A stretch of DNA of 36,904 nucleotides from an uncultured SAR86 cluster bacterium. Its GTDB lineage: Bacteria > Pseudomonadota > Gammaproteobacteria > Magnimaribacterales > AG-339-G14. The stretch spans positions 1-36,904 of the forward strand of contig CACEOL010000011.1 in assembly GCA_902561325.1 (NCBI GenBank), read 5' to 3'. The notes beneath the pieces were generated by a model, which was given only the letters and a program-made list of their open reading frames with translations, did not search any database and had not been told where the DNA came from. The stretch's first letter is position 1. Every line of letters begins with the position of its first letter. Of the stretch, positions 1,914-25,709 are shown piece by piece. The position numbers were made by a program, and so were the translations under genes.

Positions 1914-2456
1914 TTATTTAGAAAAACTCATCGAAGCTATATCAATGTCCATATCAAAATCCCTTCCAGAAGCTTCAACGCCAATAAGTTTTATTTTTTT
2001 AGGGTTAAGATTCCTTTTTTTTGGGCTTTTATTACTGTAACGAATGAATTCAGTGAATTCAATTTCAAAATCTTGCCATTCACTAGTGACTTCAAATTCA
2101 CCGAGATATCTCACCCATGGAAAGATTGATCCTTTGGTTTTTATATGAATAAAATATTTTTCATTATTTCCTCGTGCCTTGAATCTAACTTTGGAAAAGT
2201 GACTTAAATTATTTGCATCAATTTCTTTCCTAAACATTAAAAACCCTCCGCCATCGGTAGAAACATTTCCTTGTGCAGAGATAAAATCAAAATTTTCGTT
2301 AGTAGATTCTTTTAATGCCATGGAACCATCAGATTTACCTCCCATGACCTGATCTTTTACAAAACGCCAAGCATCTATATCGATATTTTTTTTGGGCAGA
2401 ATTTCAAAAGAAAGCATATTAAAAGACAAAAAGATTAATAAAAAATATTTCAACAT
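1914..2456 (-). CDS. exported CIA30/NDUFAF1-domain protein
   Basis: A 180-residue protein beginning with a hydrophobic signal-like segment (MLKYFLLIFLSFNMLSF), then WRFVKDQVMGGKSDG near residues 31-45, which is the hallmark start of the CIA30 domain (complex I intermediate-associated protein 30 family). Later blocks fit the same galactose-binding-like beta sandwich: STDGGGFLMFRKEI, FKARGN, and the terminal LIGVEASGRDFDMDIDIAS. In eukaryotes the family assists complex I assembly; bacterial members are mostly uncharacterised and often secreted, so a complex I role is not implied. It sits 3 bases downstream of the peptide deformylase gene and is probably cotranscribed with it. Confidence 0.82.
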   Translation of the reverse strand: MLKYFLLIFLSFNMLSFEILPKKNIDIDAWRFVKDQVMGGKSDGSMALKESTNENFDFISAQGNVSTDGGGFLMFRKEIDANNLSHFSKVRFKARGNNEKYFIHIKTKGSIFPWVRYLGEFEVTSEWQDFEIEFTEFIRYSNKSPKKRNLNPKKIKLIGVEASGRDFDMDIDIASMSFSK

Positions 2457-2459
2457 AAT

Positions 2460-3020
2460 TTAGTCTAAAAGTTCTTCCGAGGCTATGTTAGTTAATTCTT
2501 CTTCAAAAACTAAGTCCTTTGTAGAATTAAGTCTATCCACATACAAAAATCCAAATAAATGATCAAGCTCGTGTTGAAATACGGTTGCTAAAAAATCTTC
2601 AACTACTACTTCTTTTTCATCGGCATTTTCATTTAAATAATTAATTTTAAGCTTTCGAGGCCTTTCAACGTATCCTCTTAAACCAGGAACGCTAAGACAG
2701 CCTTCCCAGAAGCCTTGTTTTTGTTCATCAATTACTTCTAATTTTGGATTAAATATGACGAATTCTTCAGAATTTTCTAAATTATCGTATCTTTCTGAGT
2801 TGCTTTCCAATTTTATGACGGCTAATTGGATAGATATTCCTATTTGAGGCGCAGCCAAGCCAATTCCGCCGGCTTTTTTCATAACATCCCACATTTTAGG
2901 AATTAATTTCTGTATTTGAGAAGATAAAATTTCTTCCTTGCTTAGTTCTTTAGCTGTCAGCCTTAAAATAGGATTACCTAATTTTAAAATTTTGAAGTCA
3001 TTTTCAGAGATTTTTGTCAT
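2460..3020 (-). CDS. def: peptide deformylase
   Basis: Removes the formyl group from the N-terminal methionine of nascent proteins. All three family motifs are present: GIGLAAPQ at residues 52-59, EGCLS at 106-110 with the metal ligand Cys108, and HELDH at 150-154 with metal ligands His150 and His154 and catalytic Glu151. Length (186 aa) is normal. The usual Asn after the HExxH motif (HLNG) is Phe (HLFG), a mild divergence. The gene leads a minus-strand run with the CIA30, RDRSWGVRP and phosphotransferase genes and is not next to fmt, the common partner, so this may be an accessory paralogue rather than the housekeeping copy. Confidence 0.93.
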   Translation of the reverse strand: MTKISENDFKILKLGNPILRLTAKELSKEEILSSQIQKLIPKMWDVMKKAGGIGLAAPQIGISIQLAVIKLESNSERYDNLENSEEFVIFNPKLEVIDEQKQGFWEGCLSVPGLRGYVERPRKLKINYLNENADEKEVVVEDFLATVFQHELDHLFGFLYVDRLNSTKDLVFEEELTNIASEELLD

Positions 3021-3062
3021 AAAAATACCTAATTATATTGTTAAATTTAGCTTTCACTAAAA

Positions 3063-3091
3063 TTGACTTAAGTTTTTAAAGGTCTTAAACT
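3063..3091 (+). promoter_or_regulatory. sigma-70-type promoter of the lipoprotein gene
   Basis: TTGACT at 3063-3068 and TAAACT at 3086-3091 are separated by exactly 17 bases and sit about 40 bases upstream of the lipoprotein ATG at 3134, which has AGGAGA at 3120-3125 as ribosome binding site. The -35 box matches 5 of 6 consensus bases and the -10 box 4 of 6. It lies in the divergent gap between def and the lipoprotein gene. Confidence 0.5.
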
Positions 3092-3133
3092 TGCCGTCGT
3101 AAAGGCATATTAAGTGTCTTAGGAGAATTATCA

Positions 3134-3625
3134 ATGATTTTAAATAATTTAAAAAACTTATTTGGTCAATTTTTAAAACTTGTAGCTTCAGTAGCTTTAT
3201 TAGTTTTAGTTGGTTGTTCAAGCACTCCTTTTATGCAGAACAATATTGTTGCAACAAAATATCTTTTGGATAATTTTGTTGAAGATGCTGGTGGAAAAGG
3301 ACAAATAAATGCTGAAACTTATCATTGGGAAGTAGATGCTACAGCATTAGGTTGTGCTGAACTTCAAGCTGAAAGAATCAGGCATTCTGCTTTAATTGAT
3401 GGTGTTGCAGAAAAAGTAATTGAAAATTCATCTAGATCTACTAGTTATGCATTATATGGACTTGAAATGCATGATCCTTCTGCAGGTACAAGTTTTATTG
3501 GTGTTAAATCTACAGGATTAAATCCTGAGGTTGCGGAGTATAGAAAATTAAAATTAGCTGTAGAAAAGTTAAAATCCGCTTCGATTGACAAATGTACTTC
3601 TGCTGAAGTAATGAGAACTCCCTAA
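3134..3625 (+). CDS. putative lipoprotein of unknown function
   Basis: A 163-residue protein with a charged N-terminus, a hydrophobic core (VASVALLVLV) and the lipobox LVGC with the lipidated Cys at residue 28, so it should be a membrane-anchored lipoprotein. SerSer follows the Cys, giving no Asp retention signal, so outer-membrane sorting is expected. The mature part contains two further Cys (in LGCAEL and DKCTSAE) that could form a disulfide. I do not recognise a domain. Codons end strongly in A or T and the gene has a good promoter and Shine-Dalgarno sequence, hinting at solid expression. It is monocistronic: divergent from def and convergent with the carboxyltransferase gene. Confidence 0.82.
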   Translation: MILNNLKNLFGQFLKLVASVALLVLVGCSSTPFMQNNIVATKYLLDNFVEDAGGKGQINAETYHWEVDATALGCAELQAERIRHSALIDGVAEKVIENSSRSTSYALYGLEMHDPSAGTSFIGVKSTGLNPEVAEYRKLKLAVEKLKSASIDKCTSAEVMRTP

Positions 3626-19919: not shown

Positions 19920-20582
19920 ATGATTGTTAACTTTCACAATATAGAACTCGAAACTTCTGAAGATTCATTTCGCCCAACTTTAATAAGTGAAGAGTGCGCT
20001 TTAAATGCTGATTTTATAAATAAAAAGGTCTTGGACATGGGATGCGGCATTGGGCCTCTAGCAATTTATTTTGCAAAAAACGGAGCTAATGAAGTTGATG
20101 CTTGCGATATTTACGATAAACATTTAGAACTGACAAAACTTAATGCAAAGCGAAACGATGTTTCAATTAATATTATTGAGTCTGACTTATTTCAAAACGT
20201 GACCAGTAAATACGATTTAATCTGTTGTGATGTTTCTGGGGTATCGAAAAATATTGCTGAAGTAACTGGCTGGTTTCCGACCGAAGTTCCCAAAGCAGAC
20301 GATACCGGATCAAATTTAATCGTAAGAGTTGTTGAAGGCAGTCCTGAACATCTCAAGGACGGAGGCTGTTTGAATATATGCACAACCTCTTTTTCAAATA
20401 TTCAAGAAATTGAAAATACCATGCAAAAATCTTTTCCAGATAAATGGGAGAAGATTTTAGAAAAAGAAGTGCCTTTCTCAAAGCGTTTGATAGCAAATAT
20501 AGATTTATTGAAAGATGAAATGTACTTAGAAAAAGATGGAAATTATTTCTGGATATTTTCTATGTATAAATTAAGTAAATAA
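19920..20582 (+). CDS. SAM-dependent methyltransferase
   Basis: A 220-residue Rossmann-fold methyltransferase. VLDMGCGIGPLAIYFAKNGA near residues 38-57 is SAM-binding motif I, VDACDIYDKH holds the acidic residue that binds the ribose, and SDLFQ is motif III. The overall plan resembles the small-domain (MTS) group of RsmC, PrmC and TrmN6 type, but the NPPY motif that these amino-nitrogen methylases need is replaced by CCDVSG at residues 102-107, so the target atom may differ. No ribosome binding site precedes the ATG. Its last 12 bases overlap the end of the convergent aldo/keto reductase gene. Substrate unknown. Confidence 0.78.
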   Translation: MIVNFHNIELETSEDSFRPTLISEECALNADFINKKVLDMGCGIGPLAIYFAKNGANEVDACDIYDKHLELTKLNAKRNDVSINIIESDLFQNVTSKYDLICCDVSGVSKNIAEVTGWFPTEVPKADDTGSNLIVRVVEGSPEHLKDGGCLNICTTSFSNIQEIENTMQKSFPDKWEKILEKEVPFSKRLIANIDLLKDEMYLEKDGNYFWIFSMYKLSK

Positions 20583-21548
20583 ATTTTTAAGTTCTTTCAA
20601 TTGTTCTTCGCTTAACTCAGTCATATTTTCAGCATCTAAGCATTCTTTTAACTCTTGAGTATTTTTTACTCCCAAAATCACTGAGCTTACTTTTTTTGTC
20701 GAAAGAGCATAACGATGTGCAAGAGAGGCTGGAGATTCGCCTCGCTTTTTTGCAAGTTCTCTAAAAGGCTCTGCTCTTTCATAGTCATCAAAGTCAGGTT
20801 GGTCTCTTCCTGATGAATGAGGTTCACGATCCATTTTTGACGTTAATGCTCCTGCTTGAACAGCTCTAATGGCCAAAATAGGAATATCTTTGTCCTGACA
20901 TTCCTTGAGAATTCTATTTGGATTAGGTTTTTTACTGATATAGCCTATAGCTCCAATAGAATTCATCACGTTCACTGCGCACTGCATGGCCTCAGGTTTT
21001 TTTTCATAGTTAATTGCAGAAATTAAAGCTTCTTCTTCGCCCAACCCTATTCCCCAAGAATCTATCTTTCCTTCAGACTTCAATCTTTCGAAAGCTGGAA
21101 TCACAGAATCATAATAACAAGACAAAGAGGTTGTAATTGAATCTCTTAAATCATTTAAAACGGGTAGTTGATAGTCATCTTTGATCAATTGAGAATGCAA
21201 AAGAAATAAGTTCACCTTGTCTATTTTCATTCTCTCAAAACTTTCTATAAGAGATTCATTGAGTTTTTCATAAACCTGATCGTGCGGAAGAGTGCCCAAC
21301 TGACATTTGGTTGTGATTTTCAATTTAGACGCATCTCTGTCTTTGAGAGCTTCTCCAACGACCAGTTCAGCCTCTCCTCTGCCGTACATTGGAGCCATGT
21401 CAAGATGATTGATACCGGAATCAATAGCATATAGAACAGTATCTACAGCCTCTCTTCTAGTTGTTTTGCCCCATACATTACCTATCCCGCCTCCTCCTAA
21501 AGTTAATGCGCTGATTGAGCCAAAAGGCTTGAAGTTTCTATATTTCAT
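20571..21548 (-). CDS. aldo/keto reductase
   Basis: A 325-residue TIM-barrel NADPH oxidoreductase. The catalytic tetrad is complete: Asp50 and Tyr55 in HLDMAPMYGRGEAE, Lys81 in TTKCQLG and His118 in LFLLHSQ. The C-terminal RYALSTKKVSSVILGVKNTQEL is the NADPH-binding block. The group resembles L-galactose dehydrogenase and L-fucose dehydrogenase-type AKRs; the exact aldehyde or sugar substrate is unclear. It is the last gene of a minus-strand unit after the FAD monooxygenase (27-base gap) and overlaps the methyltransferase gene tail to tail. Confidence 0.88.
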   Translation of the reverse strand: MKYRNFKPFGSISALTLGGGGIGNVWGKTTRREAVDTVLYAIDSGINHLDMAPMYGRGEAELVVGEALKDRDASKLKITTKCQLGTLPHDQVYEKLNESLIESFERMKIDKVNLFLLHSQLIKDDYQLPVLNDLRDSITTSLSCYYDSVIPAFERLKSEGKIDSWGIGLGEEEALISAINYEKKPEAMQCAVNVMNSIGAIGYISKKPNPNRILKECQDKDIPILAIRAVQAGALTSKMDREPHSSGRDQPDFDDYERAEPFRELAKKRGESPASLAHRYALSTKKVSSVILGVKNTQELKECLDAENMTELSEEQLKELKNLFT

Positions 21549-21575: not shown

Positions 21576-22751
21576 TTATTTTGAGATGGCATCATATTTA
21601 TAAAAACTGTCCATAATTTTTTTTATAAAAAATTTCATTACTAAGTTTCTAAAAATAGCAAAGAAATCCGAAAGATGAAAAATTATTGCGTTCCTGGAGG
21701 CAGTTCTTTGTGCCTTTGCCGTTCTATACTTTCTTTTATTTTCATAATCATTAAGTCCTAATTCAACATTATCGAAAGAAGAAAGGCTTGATGCCAAAAC
21801 AATGCCATCCTCAATAGCCATAGCAGCTCCTTGAGCAACAAACGGCAACATTGGATGAGCAGCATCTCCAAGCAAACTAAATCTTCCTTTACTCCATTTA
21901 TTCATGGGTGCCCTATCGTGTAACCCCCATTTATATAAACTACCGGGTTTTGTACTTTCTAAAATCTCTTGAATTTCGGGATGCCAGTCAGAAAAAATAT
22001 TCTTAAGTTCAGAGATATCTCCTTTTTCAGACCAATCCTCATTCGTCCAGTCATTTTGTTCAACAAGACATACACAATTTAAAAAATTTCCGCCTTTTAC
22101 CAGATATTGTACAAAATGCTTCTTGGGTCCCAACCAAACTTTGGTATTTTGTTGTAAGAATTTTGAAGATATTTCTTCTATAGGGACTAACATTCGCCAT
22201 GCTACATTCCCTGTATACCGAGCTTGATCTTCCCCCCAAAGTTTTTTTCTTACAATTGAATGAATTCCATCTGCGCCGATCACAGCATCCGACCTAATCA
22301 CCCTTTCTTTGGTTTTAATAAAGGCGCCATTTGCTTCTTCATATAAATCTAAGATTTCAGAATTTTTTTTAATTTGAATTTCTTCTTTGTTGATAACTTT
22401 CAAAAGAGCTTTTTGTAAATCAGCTCGGTGAACATCGTAGTTTGGAGAACCATATATCTTTACTGAAGAGTTTTTTAAAGCCTGTTGAGCTAAAACTTTT
22501 CCAGTTCGATAATGAACAAATTGAAATGCTTCTGGTTCATAAACATCTGCCTGTAACTCTTCCATAACGCCAAGATGTTTGAGTACCTTGCTAGCATTTG
22601 GAGAAAGCTGAATTCCTGCCCCAAGTTCACTTAAAGATTCTGTCTTTTCGTAGATTATTGGTTTGTGTCCTCTTTTTTTCAAAGATAAAGCAGCTACCAA
22701 TCCTCCAATTCCAGCTCCAACAATTGAAATTTCTAAAGGTTTAGATTTCAT
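21576..22751 (-). CDS. FAD-dependent aromatic-ring-type monooxygenase
   Basis: A 391-residue class A flavoprotein monooxygenase. GAGIGG at residues 12-17 binds the ADP part of FAD, GADGIHSIVR at 159-168 is the DG motif shared by FAD and NADPH sites, and GDAAHP at 295-300 is the second FAD motif. The N-terminal block with AGIQLSPNASKVLKHLGV is characteristic of the salicylate, 3-hydroxybenzoate or 6-hydroxynicotinate hydroxylase group. The C-terminal 30 residues are hydrophobic and basic (FFAIFRNLVMKFFIKK), which may promote membrane association. It lies 12 bases downstream of the iota-CA-like gene. Hydroxylation of an aromatic or cyclic substrate is likely, identity unknown. Confidence 0.87.
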   Translation of the reverse strand: MKSKPLEISIVGAGIGGLVAALSLKKRGHKPIIYEKTESLSELGAGIQLSPNASKVLKHLGVMEELQADVYEPEAFQFVHYRTGKVLAQQALKNSSVKIYGSPNYDVHRADLQKALLKVINKEEIQIKKNSEILDLYEEANGAFIKTKERVIRSDAVIGADGIHSIVRKKLWGEDQARYTGNVAWRMLVPIEEISSKFLQQNTKVWLGPKKHFVQYLVKGGNFLNCVCLVEQNDWTNEDWSEKGDISELKNIFSDWHPEIQEILESTKPGSLYKWGLHDRAPMNKWSKGRFSLLGDAAHPMLPFVAQGAAMAIEDGIVLASSLSSFDNVELGLNDYENKRKYRTAKAQRTASRNAIIFHLSDFFAIFRNLVMKFFIKKIMDSFYKYDAISK

Positions 22752-22763
22752 AAAAATTAATGG

Positions 22764-23210
22764 TTAGAGAACAGGAGAAGAATGGTGAATCTTTATCTTA
22801 ATTTCTTCTTCTTCAAGACAAAAAACAAATGTGAAAGCAACTAAAGTCGTCTCACTCGATGAGACTGGTTTAAATGAGAGCGTACCCATTGCAGAGGATA
22901 AATCTTCCTCATTTAAAATATTTAATTCTTGAAGATTTATTTCTTCCCATGGCTTTAAAGCAAAACCGTTATCTTCTGAAAATTTTCCCTTAACGAAATA
23001 AGATAAAGCGTCTTCCAAGTTATTTCTAAATATTTTTGCTTTGGTAAAAGTCGGTTTAAAGAGTATCTGTTGAGTTTTAAAAGCATAGTGTTTAGATAAA
23101 AATTTCAAAGCTTCTTTTTCAAAATCCTCTTTTTTTGAATAAGCTTTTCCTATCTCAATTACTCCTTTGGTCCATGAATAAAGAAACTCTTTAATTTTAG
23201 ATTCGTTCAT
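22764..23210 (-). CDS. divergent iota-class carbonic anhydrase-like (COG4337-type) protein
   Basis: A 148-residue alpha+beta protein without signal peptide. I recognise the block order of the COG4337 family, which includes diatom LCIP63 and bacterial iota-carbonic anhydrases: HYAF...ILFKPT at residues 41-54, a FRNNLEDALSYF block at 61-72, SEDNGFALKPWEEI at 78-91, SAMGTLSF at 106-113 and terminal IKIHHSSPVL. Thr54, Tyr71 and Ser144/145 match the three residues reported as important in metal-free members, with similar spacing. The usual HHSSLP ending is HHSSPV here and the sequence is otherwise divergent. Start is ATG at 23210; the preceding TTG would add one residue. It leads a unit with the FAD monooxygenase and aldo/keto reductase. 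Family moderately sure, catalytic activity unproven. Confidence 0.66.
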   Translation of the reverse strand: MNESKIKEFLYSWTKGVIEIGKAYSKKEDFEKEALKFLSKHYAFKTQQILFKPTFTKAKIFRNNLEDALSYFVKGKFSEDNGFALKPWEEINLQELNILNEEDLSSAMGTLSFKPVSSSETTLVAFTFVFCLEEEEIKIKIHHSSPVL

Positions 23211-23262
23211 CAAATTATGATAATTAATTTATTTAGGTATTGAAACTTAGTAAGATGAATTT

Positions 23263-24866: not shown

Positions 24867-25709
24867 TTAATCAAGGTCACTGGCATCATGCCTTTCAGGA
24901 ATTGCATTATCTTCAGGCCCACTGGGAGGTCGCCCTACTCTAGCACCTCGCTTGAAAGCCGGTCTTTCGGAAATTTCTTCTGCCCATCGAACAACGTTTT
25001 TATAGGATTTAACATCTAAAAATTCGGCAGCGTTATATGCATTTTTCAACACCAAATAACCATACCAAGGATGAATTGCCATGTCGGCAATGTTGTATTC
25101 ATCACCACAAATAAACTTTCTGTTTTCTAAATTCTTATCCAAGACGTCCAATTGACGCTTAACTTCCATTGCAAATCGATTTATAGGATATTCGAATTTT
25201 TCAGGAGCATAGGCATAAAAGTGTCCAAATCCGCCGCCCAAGTAGGGTGCGCTGCCCATTTGCCAAAAAAGCCAAGACATACATTCAGCTCTTGCTGCTG
25301 GATCTGTCGGAATAAACTCACCAAACTTCTCTGCAAGGTAAACCAAAATTGCTCCGGATTCAAAAACTCTTGTATGTGGTTCTAAACTTCTATCTAAAAG
25401 AGCAGGAATTTTAGAATTTGGATTTATTTCAACAAAACCACTTCCAAATTGATCGCCATTTCCAATGTTAATCAGGTATGCATCGTACTCAGCACCTTCA
25501 TACCCCAAAGCCAAAAGTTCTTCGAGAAGGACAGTGACCTTCACTCCATTTGGTGTTCCAAGCGAATAGAGTTGCATGGGATGTTTCCCAACAGGCAATT
25601 CTTTATCATGCGTTGCTCCAGAAATTGGTCTATTTATATTTGCAAATCTACCACCGCTTTCTTGATCCCAAGTCCATACTTTTGGGGGTGAATACGTTTT
25701 ATCTGTCAT
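24867..25709 (-). CDS. yghU: YghU-type glutathione S-transferase/disulfide-bond oxidoreductase
   Basis: A 280-residue nu-class GST that matches E. coli YghU along its length: the N-terminal extension (PPKVWTWD, NRPISGATHDKELPVGKHP), the catalytic TPNG at 52-55 (Thr and Asn contact two glutathione molecules), the GDQFGSGFVEINPNSKIPAL block, GGGFGHFYAYAPEKFEYPINRF and the terminal ERHDASD. The E. coli enzyme reduces disulfides and organic hydroperoxides using GSH. Start ATG overlaps the stop of the upstream membrane-protein gene as ATGA, indicating translational coupling. This is the most confidently identified member of the GST cluster. Confidence 0.92.
   Translation of the reverse strand: MTDKTYSPPKVWTWDQESGGRFANINRPISGATHDKELPVGKHPMQLYSLGTPNGVKVTVLLEELLALGYEGAEYDAYLINIGNGDQFGSGFVEINPNSKIPALLDRSLEPHTRVFESGAILVYLAEKFGEFIPTDPAARAECMSWLFWQMGSAPYLGGGFGHFYAYAPEKFEYPINRFAMEVKRQLDVLDKNLENRKFICGDEYNIADMAIHPWYGYLVLKNAYNAAEFLDVKSYKNVVRWAEEISERPAFKRGARVGRPPSGPEDNAIPERHDASDLD

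Follow-up and report, generated by a model that had tools for sequence, protein, structure and literature searches.

Carbonic anhydrases (CAs) of the iota class with the COG4337 domain are an already known enzyme family, in which all2909 from Anabaena and Bn86287 from Bigelowiella natans are the closest known relatives of the protein described here. According to the mutant data in the parts of PMC8132391 drawn on here, alanine at Thr106, Tyr124, His197 or Ser199 abolishes the activity of all2909. The corresponding change of Thr or Tyr in the third Bn86287 domain left no activity either, and changing His or Ser lowered it 4- or 8-fold, respectively. Those parts of the paper also describe a signal peptide as usual, without being defining, for bacterial COG4337 members. 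The SAR86 protein described here is a divergent cytosolic member of this family. We consider it likely to be an iota-class carbonic anhydrase that needs no metal and remains in the SAR86 cytoplasm.

The gene lies in a window of 36,904 nucleotides, the whole stretch of DNA that was analysed, which is carried by contig C11 of the 1.17-Mb genome G000. Its features are compiled in Table 1. The ORF list of the window agreed with the preliminary description in placing the gene on the minus strand, with an ATG start codon at 23210, a stop at 22764 and 148 codons in between. A TTG one codon 5' of this ATG was the mechanical start of the program-made call. Upstream, a short-chain dehydrogenase (SDR) gene is oriented divergently. 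When the locus was scanned for promoters and terminators, scores were near the shuffled means, and the sigma-70-like match at 23223-23194 (-) was weak and at chance level. Between 24112 and 29162, the window holds four glutathione S-transferase-like genes, interspersed with a small gene of a different type, and then a CoA-transferase family III gene. The glutathione S-transferase (GST) at 24867-25709 also lies close to the iota-CA gene in a different family of the order (L126, L127, L133, L138).

Table 1. Positions of the iota-CA gene, its catalytic codons and its neighbours in the window
Feature	Position	Strand	Basis
Iota-CA homologue CDS, cytosolic COG4337-type, 148 aa, ATG start	22764..23210	-	profile, PDB sequence, alignment, model, fold match
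Thr54 codon (= Thr106 of all2909, essential)	23049..23051	-	alignment, position map, mutants in part of PMC8132391
Tyr71 codon (= Tyr124, essential, proposed proton shuttle)	22998..23000	-	alignment, position map, part of PMC8132391
Phe83 codon (= Phe138, hydrophobic side of cavity, proposed CO2 side)	22962..22964	-	alignment, position map, part of PMC8132391
HHSS motif, residues 142-145 (His142 = His197, Ser144 = Ser199)	22776..22787	-	alignment, position map, part of PMC8132391
FAD-binding monooxygenase-like gene	21576..22751	-	PF01494, E 2.6e-29; 12 bases downstream of iota-CA gene
Aldo/keto reductase gene	20571..21548	-	PF00248, E 3.4e-53
Intergenic stretch between iota-CA and divergent SDR gene	23211..23262	.	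well conserved across six genus loci

The homology of the protein to iota-CAs is evident from profile and sequence searches. Its sole NCBIfam match was NF047901, metal-independent carbonic anhydrase, over the full length (E 9.4e-15), at 54.5 bits far below the equivalog cut-off of 350 bits. This cut-off was missed by all ten other bacterial COG4337 proteins of the first scored set (55-270 bits), which comprised three SAR86 or outside-neighbour proteins at the low end and others at 121-270 bits. It was missed as well by five of five further COG4337 proteins (108-180 bits), scored together with HisI as a sixth, control protein. The lowest scores, 55-61 bits, belonged to the SAR86 proteins and one outside neighbour. 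Among PDB sequences, phmmer at E<=10 retrieved iota-CAs only, namely the three-domain chain of B. natans with its three repeats (7c5x/7c5y, E 6.6e-35) and the Anabaena protein (7c5v/7c5w, E 1.7e-11). No Pfam family matched at E<=10, including the NTF2, SnoaL and CaMKII models. The preliminary description had proposed weighing COG4337 against NTF2-like and CaMKII profiles, and only the metal-independent carbonic anhydrase matched, below its cut-off. Several COG4337 proteins are publicly annotated as 'phosphoribosyl-AMP cyclohydrolase' (L049 3932-4447, L115 4992-5462, L122 3992-4462 and other plasmid matches). This name looks wrong: the three of them that were checked had no Pfam match and matched the carbonic anhydrase model, and the true HisI beside one of them matched PF01502.

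The catalytic residues of the family are intact. Thr54, Tyr71 and the HHSS motif align with Thr106, Tyr124 and the His-His-Ser-Ser stretch from His197 of all2909 (PDB chain numbering is offset by 27, with chain Thr79, Tyr97, Phe111 and His170 corresponding to 106, 124, 138 and 197). This alignment bears out the preliminary description, which had equated Thr54, Tyr71 and HHSS 142-145 with the important Thr, Tyr and Ser of the family. The first His of HHSS, which was not among the residues named there, is likewise important according to the mutant data of PMC8132391 and is kept here too. Thr54, Tyr71, Phe83, His142 and Ser144 are invariant in 23/23 rows of the SAR86-order alignment A1, from which a 24th locus, L010, was left out owing to an in-frame TAG, and in 21/21 rows of the wide alignment A2. 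The Leu-Pro-Tyr tail behind HHSS, present in most other rows of A2, is absent from the SAR86 proteins.

Outside this core the protein is divergent, as had been noted before. In a tree of 64 rows (23 from SAR86, retained from 33 after near-copies were dropped, 22 signal-bearing, 17 other signal-less and two PDB domains), the SAR86 rows fell on one side of a branch with a support of 84/66. Together with L054, from a 1.0-Mb gammaproteobacterium genome of another family, they were set apart at 100/99 by a branch of 1.28 changes per column. The pairing with L054 is unsure, because the tree programme warns of long-branch joins. Given the long branch and the missing Leu-Pro-Tyr tail, the catalytic properties of the SAR86 proteins could be shifted.

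The cytosolic location follows from the N-terminus. The reading frame is closed six codons 5' of the ATG, which leaves no room for a signal peptide, and the highest N-terminal hydropathy is 0.5, compared with 1.8-2.5 in seven signal-bearing relatives; the lack of a signal peptide stated in the preliminary description is thus upheld. No SAR86 row has an N-terminal extension of >8 residues before the domain. Across the tree, signal-bearing and signal-less rows were separated by eye on the N-terminal extension, with L064 counted as signal-bearing although its signal is doubtful. The signal-less forms are not one group, and the starred branches force five changes for the 11 rows labelled CYT_other. 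Cytosolic forms thus arose several times.

The gene neighbourhood bears on the alternative that survives best. The preliminary description had grouped the gene with a FAD monooxygenase and an aldo/keto reductase, and Pfam identified both. All three genes lie on one strand, with gaps of 12 bases between the iota-CA and monooxygenase genes and 27 bases between the monooxygenase and aldo/keto reductase genes. PRK06475 and the 3-hydroxybenzoate 6-monooxygenase model of NCBIfam match the monooxygenase-like protein, both under their cut-offs. In 12/12 loci of the genus (L025-L036), the monooxygenase and aldo/keto reductase genes come after the iota-CA gene. Together with the divergence of the protein beyond its catalytic core, this arrangement would fit a re-use of the iota-CA fold for another small-molecule step, carried out with the two neighbours on an organic, perhaps aromatic, substrate. 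However, a DoxX gene intervenes in two diverged members of the genus, and neither partner gene was found within five ORFs in 13 SAR86 loci outside the genus, analysed with wider flanks (L126-L138). There, the neighbours are 2OG-Fe(II) oxygenase-like and MerC-family genes, cupin and GST genes, or others. Because the neighbours differ in these 13 loci, the coupling to the monooxygenase is local and confined to the genus level, and we rejected it as the main explanation. Moreover, other families of the order retain both the protein and its catalytic residues amid different neighbours, and the residues kept are exactly those that the mutant data of PMC8132391 identify as essential for CO2 hydration. 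Re-use of the fold, the second option of the preliminary description, is thereby weakened, and we regard it as unlikely.

The predicted structure speaks to a second alternative. An AlphaFold2 model built from the 23-row alignment A1 (pLDDT 94.2, pTM 0.90) has the cone-shaped alpha+beta barrel of the COG4337 family and superposes on 7C5V/7C5X. The top five Foldseek matches were iota-CA chains (TM by query 0.92-0.93, E 8e-12 to 1.5e-9), and the next match had an E of 1.5e-4; folds other than iota-CA reached a TM of 0.59-0.66, compared with 0.93 for iota-CA. VIA-align gave a Z of 23.8 for 7c5y/7c5x (1.3 Å, 148 residues) and of 22.5 for 7c5v (1.6 Å, 147 residues), whereas the COG4875-like 3h51 scored 15.6 (1.7 Å, 120 residues) and the NTF2-like superfamily about 14. 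The structural comparison proposed in the preliminary description thus favoured iota-CAs over every other member of the NTF2-like superfamily, and a better NTF2-like or CaMKII match did not occur. The protein might instead be a metal-binding carbonic anhydrase like the COG4875-type iota-CAs of a diatom and Burkholderia, which have the same fold and HHSS motif and, in the account that PMC8132391 gives of them, are reported or supposed users of Mn or Zn. The model is, however, closer to 7C5V/7C5X than to 3H51, and the curated profile that the sequence matches is the metal-independent one. We therefore judge a metal-binding enzyme to be somewhat less probable still than a re-used fold.

An inactive remnant, or a non-catalytic bicarbonate sensor in a carbonic anhydrase fold, would be compatible with the patchy distribution of the gene. 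Homologues occur in 15/16 genomes of the genus and 24/61 relatives, and order-wide in 39/203 genomes from 8/22 genera, with 164/203 genomes lacking one. Further out, they occur in 13/369 sampled genomes of the class and in 18/398 genomes of the phylum sample, three of the latter being weak partial matches at E 3e-4 to 5e-4. One of the 24 copies, L010 in the metagenome-derived genome G003, has its in-frame TAG in the first third of the gene. Against a remnant or sensor stand the invariant catalytic residues and a median dN/dS of 0.106 (range 0.05-0.18; 55 pairs from 11 genus sequences): purifying selection on the gene is strong and clear. We regard a remnant or sensor as very improbable. Least credible is that the motif arose by coincidence in a typical NTF2-like or CaMKII-association-domain protein. 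The NTF2-like superfamily is genuinely close in structure, but we rejected this reading on the Pfam, Foldseek and VIA-align results, since iota-CAs are far ahead by sequence, TM-score and Z.

Profile, structure and active-site conservation thus all support a streamlined carbonic anhydrase, the first option of the preliminary description. The protein probably hydrates CO2, and probably does so independently of a metal. By analogy with the solved relatives in the structural part of PMC8132391, from which the mechanism is carried over, CO2 would be held against the hydrophobic side of the barrel formed by Phe83 and Trp88. The hydroxyls of Thr54 and Tyr71, aided by Ser144 and His142 in the cavity, would activate water, which would then attack CO2 to yield bicarbonate with no need for a metal, and Tyr71 may hand the proton out. 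The probable job of the enzyme would be to convert cytosolic CO2 into bicarbonate for carboxylation reactions and pH balance, with no zinc spent.

SAR86-order genomes are nearly devoid of alpha-CA and beta-CA. A profile search of the relatives found alpha-CA in 0/61 genomes. Beta-CA occurred in 1/61 relatives and 11/203 genomes of the order, all 11 in one other family. None of these 11 genomes was among the 39/203 with iota-CA, an overlap of zero with a hypergeometric chance of 0.09, so that mutual exclusion was not established. A gamma-CA-like protein is encoded in G000 (181 bits to NF050158, cut-off 250), and strong matches (E <1e-40) are present in 52/61 genomes; we therefore rejected iota-CA as the sole carbonic anhydrase of the cell. 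Because 22/24 iota-CA carriers have the gamma-CA-like gene, the cell may not depend on iota-CA. The gamma-CA-like protein is a putative carbonic anhydrase, so that the iota enzyme is unique among the candidates in being metal-free but is not the only one.

In marine cells, carbonic anhydrase ranks among the largest consumers of zinc, and a metal-free form suits metal-poor ocean water. Outside SAR86, zinc-starvation genes lay in the fetched flank of 6/17 signal-less rows, a post-hoc count from a small and uneven sample. Neither a seed search nor a reading of the flanks found such genes in the remaining 11/17, which were covered by three-kb loci, six of them with wide flanks. The zinc-cluster loci of signal-less COG4337 proteins (L123, L122, L115, L118, L116, L050, L141) are from members of the Rhodobacterales, from Sphingomonas and from one gammaproteobacterium. 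Sagittula stellata has a pair of GTP-binding protein genes, then the CA gene and a confirmed DUF1826 gene, and after these metal ABC transporter genes, a gene for a transcriptional repressor and one for a zinc-binding protein. The order is hisI, GTP-binding protein, thrS, CA and DUF1826 in Phaeobacter inhibens, thrS, CA and a confirmed hisI in Thioclava, and GTP-binding protein, CA and DUF1826 in Paracoccus seriniphilus. Sphingomonas parapaucimobilis has a gene assigned to the CobW family by Pfam, one annotated as a repressor but lacking a Pfam match, and the CA gene; in genome G405, COG0523-like, amidohydrolase and Fur-family genes are followed by the divergent CA gene. Of the signal-bearing loci from annotated plasmids, 6/9 had the genes of a two-component system (histidine kinase and response regulator) next to the CA gene, and in 1/9 (L121) a metal ABC permease was encoded no more than 4 kb away. 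In locus L061, from a gammaproteobacterium, a signal-bearing iota-CA gene has downstream of it 15 repeats (2374-3400) spaced exactly 66 bases apart, which resemble a CRISPR array. A scan for Zur-box palindromes upstream of four signal-less relatives gave nothing convincing.

In the part of PMC2770081 drawn on here, the Zur-regulon members include ThrRS, HisI, PyrC and gamma-CA paralogues; the word COG4337 is absent from that part. In zinc-depleted P. denitrificans, a COG0523 operon with the hypothetical genes pden1339 and pden1340 was up about ten-fold, according to the expression data in part of PMC5387054. By analogy with the gene order of P. seriniphilus, these two genes could encode the CA and DUF1826. 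A literature search at the level of titles found no paper on a zinc link of COG4337 or on SAR86 with carbonic anhydrase.

The zinc-cluster relatives suggest that the signal-less, cytosolic COG4337 forms are zinc-sparing enzymes. More tentatively, SAR86 may have hard-wired the same solution that lies in Zur/COG0523 clusters elsewhere: having lost beta-CA and Zur, it would use its divergent metal-free enzyme as the permanent main cytosolic CO2 hydratase in the zinc-poor surface ocean, a scenario that we consider possible but rather doubtful. Within SAR86, some genomes (G017, G040) have an unlinked COG0523-DUF1826 pair, and the COG0523 gene of G000 is 54% identical to one of Sagittula. An association of COG0523 with iota-CA was rejected, since strong matches occurred in 10/24 carriers and 10/37 non-carriers (Fisher p 0.27); without the genus, a post-hoc cut, the counts were 7/9 carriers and 10/36 non-carriers (p 0.017). 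Fur-family matches were found in 56/61 genomes, mostly one each, with a second match in two, one of these under the cut-off; G000, which is 87% complete, had none. As a rule, a genome has a single Fur-family protein, which by these matches may be Fur or Zur, and Zur control in SAR86 was rejected. The MerC-family neighbour was rejected as a sign of zinc, since MerC is present in 56/61 genomes anyway, and titles pairing MerC with Zur held nothing useful. The SAR86 lineage and the cytosolic compartment make the zinc-sparing idea worth testing. If it holds, a metal-free cytosolic carbonic anhydrase, strongly selected in almost every member of one genus within an abundant, gene-poor group of marine bacteria, would be a case of zinc saved by enzyme replacement. 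The signal-less relatives in Zur/COG0523 clusters make replacement of zinc-CA under zinc starvation testable in culturable Rhodobacterales.

Compared with known systems, the SAR86 protein has the superfamily fold and HHSS motif in common with the COG4875-type iota-CAs (diatom LCIP63, Burkholderia territorii; relative 3H51). Metal dependence has been reported or supposed for these, as treated in part of PMC8132391, and 3H51 is more distant, with a Z of 15.6 and 19% identity. Like the SAR86 protein, the zinc-cluster COG4337 proteins (L050, L066/L141, L115, L116, L122, L123) are single-domain and cytosolic by sequence, and the two that were aligned (L050, L066) keep the catalytic residues. They belong to other clades, however, and are linked to Fur-family, COG0523, DUF1826, ThrRS or HisI genes, a linkage that the SAR86 gene does not have. 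From all2909 and Bn86287, the SAR86 protein differs in its sequence (27-28% identity), in having neither a signal or targeting peptide nor the Leu-Pro-Tyr tail, and in belonging to a clade of its own, which is long-branched and made up of streamlined bacteria. With all2909 (7C5V/7C5W) and Bn86287 (7C5X/7C5Y), the enzymes of PMC8132391, it shares the full-length fold at 1.3-1.6 Å, a domain of ~150 residues, the cavity Thr, Tyr, His, Ser and Phe, and the C-terminal HHSS.
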